64,000 nt of DNA from an uncultured Spirochaetaceae bacterium (GTDB lineage Bacteria > Spirochaetota > Spirochaetia > Sphaerochaetales > Sphaerochaetaceae). Shown in pieces: positions 51,095-56,438 of this stretch. A model generated the notes under the pieces. It did not search any database. It had not been told where the DNA came from and was given only the letters and a program-made list of their open reading frames with translations. Positions within the stretch are counted from its first letter, which is position 1, and each line of letters begins with the position of its first letter. Made by a program: the position numbers and the translations under genes. The stretch covers positions 62,001 to 126,000 of the forward strand of contig CALXOL010000003.1 in the NCBI GenBank assembly GCA_944390015.1, given 5' to 3'.

Positions 51095-52315
51095 ATGCTC
51101 ATCAGATTTAAAGCAAGCAATTTTCGATCCTTCCGAGAGCCAATGGAATTTTCCATGAAAGCATCTTCAAATAAGGAACATCCTGAGAATACAAAAGAGC
51201 AATCCATCTATGGAAATCTCTTAAAATCTGCAGCTATCTTTGGTGCAAATGCTGCAGGAAAATCAAATCTTATAAGAGCGATTACATCCGCTCTTATAAT
51301 CATACGTACATCAGAAACAAGACAGGTCAACGAACTTATTCCGTTTGTTGAGCCTTTTGCCTTCTGCAAAGAGGTAAAGGAAACATCCTTTGAATTCGAA
51401 TTTACAATGGATGAAAGCAGATACATTTACGGATTCTCTTGTACTCAGAAGAAAATCACCGAAGAACATCTGACAGCATACAATTCTCAGAGACCCACAA
51501 AGATATTCAAGAGAACAGCAAAGGGATATGAATTCTACAGCAATGAAGCACAAAACCAGCTTAGGCCTCTAACTGAACGAACCACTGCTAACAAGCTATT
51601 CATTGCCACTGCCACAGTATGGAATGCCAGTCTGACTAAAAAGCCCTATCTCTGGCTTAGCAGTTATATAGATGTCTTTGACTCAAACAACCCCATGCTT
51701 CAATCGCTTGAGCTATATGAAAAAGATAAGAGCGGAAAGCTCAGATCATTCACAAATAACCTTCTGAAAGAGGCTGACATAAACATAAGTGATTTTACAA
51801 TTGAAGCAAAGAATATAAATAATCCACCTCTTTTCATGGTTAATATACCTGTTCCGTCCATACAGAAGGAGTATATAGTAAGGACAGAGCATATTGTTCG
51901 AACGGACGGAGATAATCATGCCATATATCAGCTCCCATTACCTGCTGAATCTAAAGGAACACAAAATCTATTTTTCTTGAGTCCATGGATTAAGAAAGCT
52001 CTCGATAAAGGATATGTATTCTGTGTGGACGAGCTTGATTCAAGCATGCACCCTGCCCTACTGCTTTATATCGTCAATCTCTTCAATTCTCCTGAAACGA
52101 ATCCGAAAGGTGCTCAGCTCATCATGACAACGCATACTACTGATCTCCTTTCCACAAGCATCATGAGAAGGGATCAGATCTTCTTCGTGGAGAAAGACAA
52201 CAATACGGGTCTCTCGGATCTGTACTCTCTCAATGACTTCCCTGCAAGGACCAGAGAAGATATTAGGAAAGCATATATCGCAGGCAGATTCGGTGCTGTA
52301 CCGAACATACTGTGA
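51095..52315 (+). CDS. rloA: RloA/AbiLi-type AAA ATPase (phage defence)
   Basis: This 406-residue ATPase has an ABC/SMC-like ATP site: Walker A IFGANAAGKSNLIRA near residue 50, Walker B YVFCVDELDSSMHPAL and the switch region LIMTTHTTDLLS. It is in the family of RloA and AbiLi, which act with a RloB partner in abortive infection. The start has AGGAGA at good spacing. It is followed after 9 bases by the rloB-like gene. Confidence 0.78.
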   Translation: MLIRFKASNFRSFREPMEFSMKASSNKEHPENTKEQSIYGNLLKSAAIFGANAAGKSNLIRAITSALIIIRTSETRQVNELIPFVEPFAFCKEVKETSFEFEFTMDESRYIYGFSCTQKKITEEHLTAYNSQRPTKIFKRTAKGYEFYSNEAQNQLRPLTERTTANKLFIATATVWNASLTKKPYLWLSSYIDVFDSNNPMLQSLELYEKDKSGKLRSFTNNLLKEADINISDFTIEAKNINNPPLFMVNIPVPSIQKEYIVRTEHIVRTDGDNHAIYQLPLPAESKGTQNLFFLSPWIKKALDKGYVFCVDELDSSMHPALLLYIVNLFNSPETNPKGAQLIMTTHTTDLLSTSIMRRDQIFFVEKDNNTGLSDLYSLNDFPARTREDIRKAYIAGRFGAVPNIL

Positions 52316-52324
52316 GGTACAATC

Positions 52325-52966
52325 ATGGCAAAAAGAAATGAGAACCCATCAAAAAAGAGAAAACAGAACAAGCTCATATTATTTGCCGCAGAAGGGCATA
52401 ATGCCACAGAGACTCTTTATCTCAAGGACTTGATCAAGAATCTTAATGGAGTAGTGCTCAGAAAAGCCCACGGTAACGAAACAGATCCTATAGGTATGAT
52501 TGAGAATTTGATAGCTTCAATGGATGCGCTTGGTTTCGATTCCTATTATGGAGATCTTGCGTTCTGTTTCGTTGATCTTGACTGTGATAAAGGAAAGGAG
52601 CAGCAAATCAGGAAAGCATTGGAACTAGCTACAAGTAACAACATTCACCTCATCATTTCAAATCCTTGCTTTGAATTATGGTATATATGCCATTTTACAA
52701 GCTCTCCGAAGAATTATCTCAAAAGCAAAGACCTGTTAAATGATATGCCTTCTTACATAAATGGATACAACAAATCTATGGAGGCAATATATCCACTGAT
52801 CAAGGACAAAACCAATGCGGCAATAAGGAATGCAGAACAACTCGAAAAGCGTGCAAAAGAAAAAGGCTATATCCCTAACACTGCAGATTTTTCTCCGTCA
52901 ACCGATGTCTACAGGATTTTTCAATTACTGACTGCTCCCACAAGCAAGCAAATGGGGTTCCGGTGA
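52325..52966 (+). CDS. rloB: RloB/AbiLii-like effector
   Basis: This 213-residue protein matches the RloB domain: KLILFAAEGHNATETLYLKD at the N-terminus, an acidic FCFVDLDCDK and the segment LIISNPCFELWYICHF. These resemble the TOPRIM-like core of the family, so it is probably the nuclease effector released or activated by the RloA ATPase. It shares a transcript with rloA. Its 3' end faces the end of the TnpB element. Confidence 0.78.
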   Translation: MAKRNENPSKKRKQNKLILFAAEGHNATETLYLKDLIKNLNGVVLRKAHGNETDPIGMIENLIASMDALGFDSYYGDLAFCFVDLDCDKGKEQQIRKALELATSNNIHLIISNPCFELWYICHFTSSPKNYLKSKDLLNDMPSYINGYNKSMEAIYPLIKDKTNAAIRNAEQLEKRAKEKGYIPNTADFSPSTDVYRIFQLLTAPTSKQMGFR

Positions 52967-53134: not shown

Positions 53135-54463
53135 TTACTTCAAGTTCTGTCTTTCTCCTCCCCGAGCTCTTATCCCGCTGTTAAGCACTTTCCTTCCTGA
53201 AAGCCTTATCCTTTCAATTTCCTCTTCATGCATCCTATTGAAGGAAGCGAAGCTGTTGATGCAATTCATCCCATCTATCACCAACTGTCCCGTGCTATTG
53301 TCCGCAGTGGCATTGTAGAGTAGAAATGAAGAATACAGATCCCTCTGCACGATTGTTCCATCTGAAAGGGGGAACATCCTCTCAGAGAGCTTCCTCTTCA
53401 CATACTCCCTATTCGTGTGATCATATTGCGAAGCCCTGTAGTCATAAGGGACTTCAAGGTATCTACCACCGGAAGATGTGAATTTCATCTCAATCCGGCT
53501 CTGGAAATATCCGGGACAACGGATCCTTACAGACTTGCCGAATCTCTTCTTCCTGTTTGTCCTCCCTGATTTCTCATTGACTGTTGTCTCCTTTGAGCGG
53601 AGCATCAGCTTCTTCGCATTCTTCGCCTCTGTGATGAATACATCCCCAAGACTCCTCATATGGTTCACATCCTCCCTGATAGCGAGGTGGCGGTTGATGG
53701 AGTTCTTACGATGAAGAGAGGAGAGTTTTTTCCTGTTTTCGACATAGTTCTTTGAGAAGGTCCACTTCCCGCATCTTTTCCTTACTGTTCCATCATCATT
53801 GAAATTCTGAGGATTCATCTCCCTTATTGAACGGTCAAGCCTCCTTAAAAGAAGTCTTTCTTTTCTTTCGCTCCTTGATATGGCATTACCGCGCTCTGCA
53901 AGGTTCCTGAGGCCGCACTCTTTATCAGAAGTGTAGGCAATCGTCTGAGTGCCGATGTCGCAGCCGATGATGCCGGTTCCATACTTGTGACGATATGAGC
54001 CATCCTTGTTGAACTTCGCCATTGCCTTTCCTTCAATCGTGAGATAGATGAACACCCTGAGCCTTCCTCTTATCTCCTCGCACTTCAGTGCGGCATAACA
54101 TGGACGATAGGTGTCATGGATTTTCCCGGTCTCAGAAAAGAGCTTTGCCGCCTTCTCATCAACCTCTTCACTGTGAGCCAGATAATCGAGTACCGCATCA
54201 GCCTCATCCCTCTCGAACCTGTCCCTTATTATCGGGGAGAAGGTGATGCCATCACATGAGAGAATCAGATGGTTGTTAATGTTCTTCACCGTGATGATCC
54301 TCTCAATCTGCTTGGCCCTTAGGATGGGGAGAGCACCTCTCCTCTGGAAATGGATCATTTTCCCTTCTTCATACAGAACCTTCTCAACTCCTTTCCAGAT
54401 ATCCTCGGCACGGGTTAGGGCGAACACACTGGGAAGCTTGAATTTCTTTCCAATCGGAATCAT
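53135..54463 (-). CDS. TnpB-family RNA-guided nuclease, C-terminal part (split by a stop)
   Basis: These 442 residues carry the RuvC parts of an IS200/IS605-type TnpB. The acidic triad is present: Asp in GIIGCDIGTQTIAY, Glu in DVFITEAKNAKK and Asp in VQRDLYSSFLLYNA. The CxxC zinc-ribbon pairs normally found between the last two are absent; the segment reads SQYDHTNREYVKRKL. The frame continues upstream without a shift through seven codons to a TAG at 54482-54484, beyond which the N-terminal part lies. It is therefore one 547-residue gene interrupted by an amber codon. No TnpA is nearby. Confidence 0.75.
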   Translation of the reverse strand: MIPIGKKFKLPSVFALTRAEDIWKGVEKVLYEEGKMIHFQRRGALPILRAKQIERIITVKNINNHLILSCDGITFSPIIRDRFERDEADAVLDYLAHSEEVDEKAAKLFSETGKIHDTYRPCYAALKCEEIRGRLRVFIYLTIEGKAMAKFNKDGSYRHKYGTGIIGCDIGTQTIAYTSDKECGLRNLAERGNAISRSERKERLLLRRLDRSIREMNPQNFNDDGTVRKRCGKWTFSKNYVENRKKLSSLHRKNSINRHLAIREDVNHMRSLGDVFITEAKNAKKLMLRSKETTVNEKSGRTNRKKRFGKSVRIRCPGYFQSRIEMKFTSSGGRYLEVPYDYRASQYDHTNREYVKRKLSERMFPLSDGTIVQRDLYSSFLLYNATADNSTGQLVIDGMNCINSFASFNRMHEEEIERIRLSGRKVLNSGIRARGGERQNLK

Positions 54464-54481
54464 GGCTTTCCTGCAGAAGTC

Positions 54482-54778
54482 CTAGCTCACACCATACTCA
54501 ATCTGCATGGCCTTCATCTGAGCAGAAAGATGCGATTTCAATGCATTGTCACCATTCTCAGAAGCCTTGCCGTAAAGTGTTTTCAGCTTCCTGTACCTTT
54601 TTGTCCTGAGAAGCTGAATGATGCTGTTCCTCATCAATGCTGTAAGCTCGTTGCCGGCAAGGCGGAGACGGTCTGCGATGCTGAAGATCCTTCTCTTTTC
54701 ATCCTCGCTCATATCTGCCTCGATTACGAGGACATGCCTTGAACTCTTCTTTCTTAAGGATTTCATGTCGTCATCCAA
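54482..54778 (-). CDS. TnpB-family nuclease, N-terminal part ending at an in-frame TAG
   Basis: These 98 residues are helical and basic (DRLRLAGNELTALMRNSIIQ and LLRTKRYRKLKTLYG) and look like the N-terminal region of TnpB proteins. The stop TAG is in the same frame as the downstream RuvC part, only seven codons before its first ATG. The start is probably the TTG at 54778, seven bases after AAGGAGG. A later ATG at 54766 is too far from it. It makes sense only as part of the longer protein. Confidence 0.65.
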   Translation of the reverse strand: MDDDMKSLRKKSSRHVLVIEADMSEDEKRRIFSIADRLRLAGNELTALMRNSIIQLLRTKRYRKLKTLYGKASENGDNALKSHLSAQMKAMQIEYGVS

Positions 54779-55012: not shown

Positions 55013-55054
55013 AATAAAAAAGCGTAAGTCATTTGATTAGCAAACAACTTACGC
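55013..55054 (-). terminator. tRNA-Val terminator
   Basis: A perfect 8-bp stem (GCGTAAGT 55022-55029, ACTTACGC 55047-55054) is followed on the reverse strand by six U. Confidence 0.7.
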
Positions 55055-55056
55055 AA

Positions 55057-55128
55057 TGGGCGGTACAGGGTTTGAACCTGTGACTTCAACCACGTCAAGG
55101 TTGCACTCTCCCACTGAGTTAACCGCCC
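55057..55128 (-). tRNA. tRNA-Val (anticodon GAC)
   Basis: The reverse strand folds as a cloverleaf. The acceptor stem is GGGCGGT/ACCGCCC with an A discriminator, and the anticodon stem CAACC/GGTTG frames the loop TTGACGT. The T-arm is CACAGGTTCAAACCCTGT. The GAC anticodon reads GUC/GUU valine codons. CCA is not encoded. The accessory region lies directly on its 3' side. Confidence 0.93.
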
Positions 55129-55184
55129 GAACATGAAGAAGATATCACCTTTTAACAGATGATGTCAAGCACATGAAATCAATG

Positions 55185-56438
55185 TCAGCATTGTTCAGAT
55201 TCTAAGGTCCTCAAACTTTGAAATAATGAAATCTTATCCTCATCAGGCTTTATGCCAAGGAGGGCGAAAAACTCCTCTTTTTTGATACCTACTTCCTCAA
55301 GAGAGGGAATAAGACTTACAATATCCCTATATCTGTCTGCTATTCCCGCTTTCTGCATCCCTTTAAGCATCACAACTCCATTCCCGTTAACGATGATATT
55401 ATCAAGGGTGAGATTACCGTGAGAAAATACACAATCTTCTTTAACCTGTGCGTCCTCAACATCCTGAAGCATCATCCAGCCTTTATATGAAAGGTGCTTC
55501 TTTTTCAAATTCTCAATTGTCAGCTTTATGTCCTCAGAGCATGGACATGATGATATATCCATAGCCCAGAATGCTTTAAGAAGCATTACCGAGGTCTTAA
55601 GGATCCTGTTCCTTGTTGAGGCGCTCAGCACTCTTCCCTTCTTTTTTGAGAGCAAGAGATAGCTATCATCCTCATATAGGATTTCAGCAACAGGGAAGCT
55701 TTGGCTCATCCATCTGATGATCTCAGCCTCATTGCCGTAAGCCTTATGAAGAGAACAATAAGTGAATTCACGGTCTTCTCCAAGCATGTCAGGGCGTAGG
55801 CGAATCGTCTCTTTCACCGACTCTATCTCATTAAAACTTCTGATTTTCTCCCTATCCCCGCTAAGAAGAACAGGAGGAACGCCTTTTCCTCCAAATAAAG
55901 CAGGATGTGTGTACTGGGGATACTCTAGAATTCCATTCTCAAAACTCTCCTCTTTCGCAGAAGTTCCTCTTAGCGCCCCTTCAAGAAGACGGGTAACCGC
56001 CTCTGCAGTGATTATTGCGGCACTTTCACCCCCGGTGAGAATGTAATCTCCGATTGAAAGCTCATAATCAACATAACTCCTGAACCTCTCATCAACACCT
56101 TCATAATGCCCTGCAATAAGAATGATATGCTCCTCTTTTGCCAGCTCGTGAGCAATCGGCTGGGAGAATTTCTTTCCCTTAGGGCCCATGAGTATTGTTT
56201 TTGCACCAACTGTTTTTACTGCATTGAGTGCATTTGCCATCGTATCAACTCTCAGCAGAAGCCCAGAGCCCCCACCATAGGGAGAGTCATCCACCTTGCG
56301 GAAACAGCCATCGGCATATTTCCTGATATCAACAACATCAAAAGTTACAAGTCCTTTCTTCTGAGCCCTTTTGATCACAGGATAGTTTAAAAAGCTCGAA
56401 AACGATTCTGGGAATATTGTAAGAAAAGTTATCTTCAT
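55185..56438 (-). CDS. trmD: TrmD tRNA(m1G37) methyltransferase fused to a degenerate APH(3')-like domain
   Basis: Residues 1-220 are a complete TrmD: MKITFLTIFPESF, SPYGGGSGLLL, LMGPKGKKFSQPIA, AGHYEGVDERF, SIGDYILTGGE, YPQYTHPA. It methylates G37 of tRNAs with SAM. Residues ~221-417 follow without a break and resemble an aminoglycoside phosphotransferase of APH(3') type: EAEIIRWMSQSFPVAEILYE, FSHGNLTLDNIIV, AGIADRYRDIVSLIPSLEE and FFALLGI. The catalytic Asp of HGD is Asn, and the Mg-binding ID(F/L)G site reads MLKGM, so kinase activity is doubtful. Normal TrmD is about 230-260 residues. Confidence 0.9.
   Translation of the reverse strand: MKITFLTIFPESFSSFLNYPVIKRAQKKGLVTFDVVDIRKYADGCFRKVDDSPYGGGSGLLLRVDTMANALNAVKTVGAKTILMGPKGKKFSQPIAHELAKEEHIILIAGHYEGVDERFRSYVDYELSIGDYILTGGESAAIITAEAVTRLLEGALRGTSAKEESFENGILEYPQYTHPALFGGKGVPPVLLSGDREKIRSFNEIESVKETIRLRPDMLGEDREFTYCSLHKAYGNEAEIIRWMSQSFPVAEILYEDDSYLLLSKKKGRVLSASTRNRILKTSVMLLKAFWAMDISSCPCSEDIKLTIENLKKKHLSYKGWMMLQDVEDAQVKEDCVFSHGNLTLDNIIVNGNGVVMLKGMQKAGIADRYRDIVSLIPSLEEVGIKKEEFFALLGIKPDEDKISLFQSLRTLESEQC

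Follow-up and report, generated by a model that had tools for sequence, protein, structure and literature searches.

Introduction

TrmD is the textbook universal, essential and normally single-copy enzyme, and it is an antibacterial target. In Kae1-Bud32 (KEOPS), a tRNA position-37 modification protein responsible for t6A is joined to a small kinase-fold protein, Bud32, which is an active ATPase. For the kinase APH(3')-IIIa, we take D190 to be the catalytic residue, D208 to be Mg-binding and Lys44 to belong to the N-lobe.

How TrmD reads its substrate has been described for the Haemophilus influenzae enzyme, in which D169 and R154 act on G37 and D50 on G36, F171 and S170 lie at SAM, Ser198-Gly199-x-His201 contacts G10:C25, and Arg183 contacts the phosphates of G26-C28 (PMC5372744). 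Canonical TrmD needs a purine at position 36 (PMC9508554), so that a tRNA with C36-G37 should be a poor canonical substrate. In the TrmD-Tm1570 fusion, the TrmD half is active (PMC11187310). Neither a fusion of TrmD with APH nor a TrmD paralogue of the kind described here was found in the literature searched.

Results

The window (the whole stretch of 64,000 nucleotides that was analysed) carries on its minus strand, at 55185..56438, an open reading frame of 417 amino acids, whose ATG start at 56438 matches that of its homologues. Residues 1-219 (55782..56438) match TrmD above the NCBI equivalog cut-offs (NF000648, E 9e-76, 253.9 vs 220 bits; TIGR00088, E 5e-74, 248.5 vs 195 bits). Residues 220-417 (55188..55781) form a C-terminal extension. 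A search with its 197 residues alone, which the earlier note had proposed, returned the APH(3') profile NF033068 (E 3e-25, model positions 50-251 of 255) at 89.1 bits, below the equivalog cut-off of 205; the first ~50 model positions, the N-lobe up to helix C, are missing. A profile built from six homologues matches the structures of APH(3')-IIIa (2bkk, E 1.9e-23). In the alignment with APH(3')-IIIa, N342 stands in place of D190 and G360 in place of D208; E60, N195 and the ADxxxD segment persist, whereas the N-lobe, and Lys44 with it, is gone. The degenerate catalytic loop reads HGNLTLDN (residues 340-347; 55398..55421, minus strand), and K359-G360-M361 occupies the former place of the Mg-binding DxG (55356..55364, minus strand).

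The frame is intact, and the identity of the gene as a TrmD-APH(3') fusion is secure, as the earlier note had it when it described a TrmD running into some 197 APH(3')-like residues. The alignment likewise confirms its observations that the start of the N-lobe is missing, that HGD has become HGN and that DxG is lost; given these three losses, the extension is probably non-catalytic, as it had suspected. A sequencing or assembly error joining two genes is ruled out, since 11 separately assembled species share the fusion as a homologous open frame and intermediates exist. The match of the profile to the PDB structures, together with the intermediates in the sister genus g8 (see below), shows the common descent of the extension with APH(3'). 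The extension reached the curated cut-off of no Pfam family (APH, 20.0 vs 23.2 bits), so that routine annotation would probably name the fused protein plain TrmD. Structure predictions from shallow input alignments reached mean pLDDT values of only 54 and 45, and the best Foldseek match of the low-confidence model, again 2bkk, was not significant (E 0.019); with AlphaFold models this poor, the assignment of a kinase fold rests on sequence homology.

The earlier note had taken the fused frame for the essential TrmD of the organism. This does not hold, since a canonical TrmD is encoded elsewhere in the same genome (G000:C6:100948-101613) in the gene order ffh-rpsP-KH-rimM-trmD-rplS. The fused protein, 43% identical to it, is a second TrmD (hereafter TrmD2), which explains why rpsP, rimM and rplS are absent near the fused gene, as had correctly been remarked. 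TrmD2 is an accessory paralogue found in ~32 of 139 genomes of the family, although many of the genomes sampled are incomplete MAGs and calls of absence are soft. The survey of spirochaete TrmDs, also suggested earlier, found the same extension in related spirochaetes: the pseudokinase fusion occurs in 11 genomes, five in g1 (G000, G039, G004, G027 and G031) and six in g12 (G058, G101 and G111-G114), where G039 is the public record CALXKU010000001.1 of an uncultured Spirochaetaceae MAG. Other fused states occur in g8, and unfused TrmD2 of ~240 amino acids in g1, g12, g53 and g9. Outside the family, no match spanning both the TrmD and the APH(3') parts was among the matches listed for 393 genomes of the phylum. 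Viral contigs, phages and plasmids yielded no copy of the fusion, and trmD2 has no conserved operon partner, its neighbours differing between genomes. Loss of the canonical TrmD was considered as proof of TrmD2 function and rejected: in the genomes that have TrmD2 only (G171, G166, G175, G174, G128 and G129), rplS too is either absent or truncated where a contig stops, so that the canonical operon is simply missing from those assemblies.

In a maximum-likelihood tree, TrmD2 forms one clade outside the spirochaete canonical TrmDs (UFBoot 100), and the 11 pseudokinase fusions form one clade as well (UFBoot 100). We chose to read the unrooted TrmD2 tree from the unfused end, since it is these forms that retain the normal last helix of TrmD; read in this way, the order is unfused forms, G054 and G171, then G166/G172/G173/G174, then the pseudokinase clade, with backbone supports of 63-93. 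The states of the kinase part are graded along this order. In G171, a single frame exceeds the NCBI equivalog thresholds of both enzymes (TrmD, 261.8 vs 195 bits; APH(3'), 216.8 vs 205), and the kinase part of G054 keeps HGDLCLPN and DLG. G166, G172, G173 and G175 keep HGD and have lost the middle helices, the ADR segment and the C-terminal helix. In the pseudokinase clade, the N-lobe is absent in all 11, HGD has become HGN, HGS, HGA, HGK or HGR, and DxG is lost throughout, a few members keeping the Asp without the Gly; the ADRYRD-like segment is kept nearly throughout and so is the C-terminal part, with the substrate helices shortened. The simplest reading is a single fusion followed by stepwise decay of the kinase: a near-complete APH(3')-type kinase would have taken the place of the last helix of TrmD2, most simply in one event, and this kinase would later have lost its N-lobe, its catalytic Asp and its Mg-binding Asp.

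Four g1 genomes carry a stand-alone APH(3') gene; such genes are also present in g58 and its relatives, where they are 43-47% identical to the kinase part of G171. The stand-alone genes sampled are split from all fused domains (UFBoot 100). The g1 genes (L118:3756-4532, L119:5813, L120:4794-5579 and L161:4501, in G030, G013, G021 and G005) are intact, one scoring above and one just below the NCBI APH(3') cut-off, and lie at a stable chromosomal site in the order coaE-like gene, unknown gene, APH, peptidase-like gene. In g58 (L217, L218 and L220, from G366, G437 and G464), APH(3') is joined to an N-terminal P-loop kinase-like domain in one frame of 438-455 amino acids, which is another APH(3') fusion among spirochaetes.

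We carried the residue numbers of H. influenzae TrmD over via PDB alignments. D50, R150, E164, S165 and F166, corresponding to D50, R154, D169, S170 and F171, are invariant across fused TrmD2; Glu in place of Asp169 is also the rule in the canonical TrmD of the same species. The tRNA-body contacts in the METHYLTRANSFERASE are changed. The equivalent of Arg183 is His (H178; 55905..55907, minus strand, in the window) in 17 of 17 fused TrmD2, and that of His201 is replaced in every fused TrmD2 with a readable column. The G10:C25 reader of the window's protein has become S193-G194-D195-R196 (55851..55862, minus strand); its last position, 196, is R, K or S in the pseudokinase forms and D, Q, R, A or T in g8. 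The equivalents of W207 and R208 are also replaced in the pseudokinase clade. The 12 unfused TrmD2 have Lys for Arg183, but all keep Ser-Gly-Asn and 11 keep the His, so that the change in the reader of the tRNA body goes with the fusion. In all 12 (e.g. L112:2318-3037, G021), His takes the place of Phe171, a residue whose replacement by Ala is reported to give an inactive enzyme (PMC5372744), and these proteins may be altered in a way of their own.

The extension is not positively charged (pI 5.0-8.2), yet it has less of the net acidity that marks the stand-alone APH(3') proteins (Mann-Whitney p 0.0004), which makes direct binding of tRNA plausible but does not indicate it. Both halves of fused TrmD2 are under purifying selection. 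In the extension, the three closest pairs give dN/dS values of 0.19-0.23 and other pairs 0.14-0.35, the distant ones being near saturation in dS, with bootstrap upper bounds of at most 0.50; the corresponding values are 0.08-0.19 for the TrmD2 half and 0.08-0.10 for canonical TrmD.

A gene for tRNA-Val(GAC), with C36-G37 and A10:U25, lies 57 bp downstream of the fused gene on the same strand (55057..55128; G37 at 55093). It is directly preceded by a promoter-like site, TTGACA-18-TATCTT (55139..55168, minus strand), and directly followed by a terminator-like hairpin and T run (55022..55054, minus strand); promoter-like sites are not in excess over the whole region around it. Close to this locus, at 51095-52966 on the plus strand, a pair of genes for an AAA ATPase and an RloB-like protein matches the AbiL abortive-infection system (PADLOC AbiLi, E 4e-90, and AbiLii, E 6e-20; Pfam AAA_21 and RloB). 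At 53135-54778 on the minus strand lie a frame of 442 amino acids that is TnpB-like by eye and, upstream of it, a separate one of 98, with no Pfam match at E 0.001; in G039 (L107:10675), a short TnpB-like C-terminal frame also lies beyond trmD2.

In 10 of the 11 pseudokinase genomes, tRNA-Val(GAC) lies 57-2997 bp from the fused gene, always on its 3' side, and the protein neighbours of these tRNA-linked genes fall into several different contexts. No tRNA-Val adjoins the unfused or g8 trmD2 in the loci examined. Among the 41 tRNAs read in G000, tRNA-Val(GAC) is the only one with G37 but without G36, and the only G37 tRNA without G10. In a pattern survey of the family, it has G37 in 27 of the 27 TrmD2 genomes with a tRNA call; the 81 genomes without TrmD2 divide into 63 with A37 only and 18 with G37. 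Fisher's test, which does not correct for phylogeny, gives p 8e-14 for this association in the family and 2e-5 within g1. Outside the family, A37 in this tRNA is the rule in the class. The 18 genomes with G37 and no TrmD2 mean that G37 does not require TrmD2 and is tolerated without it; in those we looked at, no trmD2 remnant lies beside the G37 tRNA-Val. On the TrmD1 tree, g1 offers three clean contrasts (G031 against G034/G023/G003; G004 and G027 against G037; G040/G030/G013/G005 against G044), and a fourth clade (G000, G039, G036 and G045) is mixed. G031, the one unlinked pseudokinase case, has a different tRNA-Val(GAC) backbone, also with G37. G004 carries two copies: one shows the A37 pattern, and the other, which has G37 and sits 2.4 kb from trmD2, is the same as the g12 allele.

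Comparison of L255, L270 and L374 (G014) with the window (55057-55128) separates tRNA-Val(GAC) in the family into two types of allele, which differ jointly at position 37 and in the pair that closes the anticodon stem; G37 mostly goes with C31:G39 and A37 with G31:C39. The A10:U25 pair was considered as a co-evolving feature and ruled out, since it occurs in the A37 tRNAs of the family too and thus does not track TrmD2.

Discussion

We propose that the pseudokinase form of TrmD2 is an active, mobile m1G37 methyltransferase, probably for tRNA-Val(GAC), in which a non-catalytic kinase fold has been reused for docking; we give this reading a probability of about one half. Its methyltransferase half would be active, as the SAM knot, the G37 pocket and the G36 contact are kept. 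Its reading of the tRNA body would have changed, with the former kinase domain offering a non-catalytic docking surface for the tRNA or for a partner. The earlier note had suggested that this domain could bind tRNA; the altered tRNA-body contacts of fused TrmD2 and the tRNA-Val(GAC) gene nearby lend that idea indirect support. The most likely substrate would be the divergent tRNA-Val(GAC) beside the gene, with G37 behind C36 and with A10:U25. A dedicated enzyme accounts for both the linkage to this tRNA and the association with G37, though we framed the idea with the data already before us, and how well it fits should be weighed accordingly. Counting against it are the 18 genomes with G37 but no TrmD2, the occurrence of A10:U25 in A37 tRNAs, the lack of a tRNA-Val beside unfused and g8 trmD2 in the loci examined, an extension that carries no positive charge, the low confidence of the structure models, and a G37 association uncorrected for phylogeny. 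A bolder version, which we advance only tentatively, is that the TrmD2-pseudokinase and the G37 tRNA-Val(GAC) to which it is dedicated have spread horizontally as a pair, a dead resistance kinase having been remade into a tRNA-reading domain.

It is possible, although we rate it clearly below the proposed reading, that the tRNA-Val(GAC) locus is instead a hot spot for the integration of islands, with trmD2 as cargo, the tRNA as its landing site, and TrmD2 a redundant or stress-related enzyme acting on ordinary tRNAs. Accessory genes do vary at the locus: the window has the AbiL-like pair and the TnpB-like frame, G004 has RhuM-like and HTH genes, G058 has an HTH gene, and in G036 and G002, which lack TrmD2, other inserts separate tRNA-Val from a glycerate kinase gene. 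The TrmD2 tree also conflicts with the TrmD1 tree (G000/G039 group with G111/G112/G114, UFBoot 97), which implies transfer of trmD2. Moreover, D50, which reads G36, is unchanged although tRNA-Val(GAC) has C36, a point against this tRNA as the substrate. Yet no tRNA-end repeats that could serve as att sites were found at the locus, and mere cargo would explain neither the changed tRNA-contact residues nor why, in g1, unlinked and unfused TrmD2 goes with G37 while the sister without TrmD2, G044, has A37.

It seems unlikely to us that the pseudokinase domain acts as a sensor, retaining a nucleotide or an aminoglycoside-like compound as its ligand and controlling TrmD2 by allostery. The ancestral fusion resembles an active APH(3'), and the Glu of helix C, the Asn of the catalytic loop (in G000) and the ADRYRD segment after the DxG position have been kept; however, all 11 proteins lack the N-lobe with its nucleotide loop and Lys44, all have lost DxG, the substrate helices are shortened, and, as noted above, the net acidity is lower than is usual for APH(3'). 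Least probable is a functionless, decaying gene born of an accidental fusion. Patchy presence beside a second, canonical TrmD in the same genomes would fit such a gene, but the frame is open in 11 of 11, the selection estimates lie well below 1 in both halves, and the catalytic residues do not vary.

If the proposed reading is true, a mobile additional TrmD whose tRNA-reading surface is altered, encoded beside one particular tRNA, would show how an enzyme of tRNA modification becomes re-specialised, and it would open the identity of position 37 to direct testing. The g8 genomes offer a rare gradation that begins with a bifunctional methyltransferase-kinase and ends with a methyltransferase-pseudokinase; if the intact relatives are active, one protein would be both an aminoglycoside kinase and a tRNA methyltransferase.

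Among known systems, Kae1-Bud32 resembles fused TrmD2 in outline, but it differs in the modification, in the fold of the enzyme and in having an active ATPase as the partner, and the Bud32 profile matches the extension only marginally (E 0.065). The TrmD-Tm1570 protein of Calditerrivibrio nitroreducens (PDB 8B1N) likewise has a second domain at the C-terminus of TrmD; there, the partner is another SPOUT methyltransferase rather than a kinase, and the protein is not described as an accessory paralogue (PMC11187310). Compared with APH(3') (NF033068; APH(3')-IIIa, 1J7I/2BKK), the extension keeps helix C, segments of the C-lobe, ADxxxD and the C-terminal helix and is recognisable by sequence, whereas it has no N-lobe, has D190 and D208 replaced and the substrate-binding part shortened, and is fused to TrmD. 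With TrmD itself (NF000648/TIGR00088), TrmD2 shares the whole SPOUT domain, most of the C-terminal domain and all catalytic residues checked; it differs in its site outside the rpsP-rimM-trmD-rplS operon, in the replacement of the last helix, in the loss of the equivalents of Arg183 and His201, and in the ~197 amino acids of kinase-derived extension.
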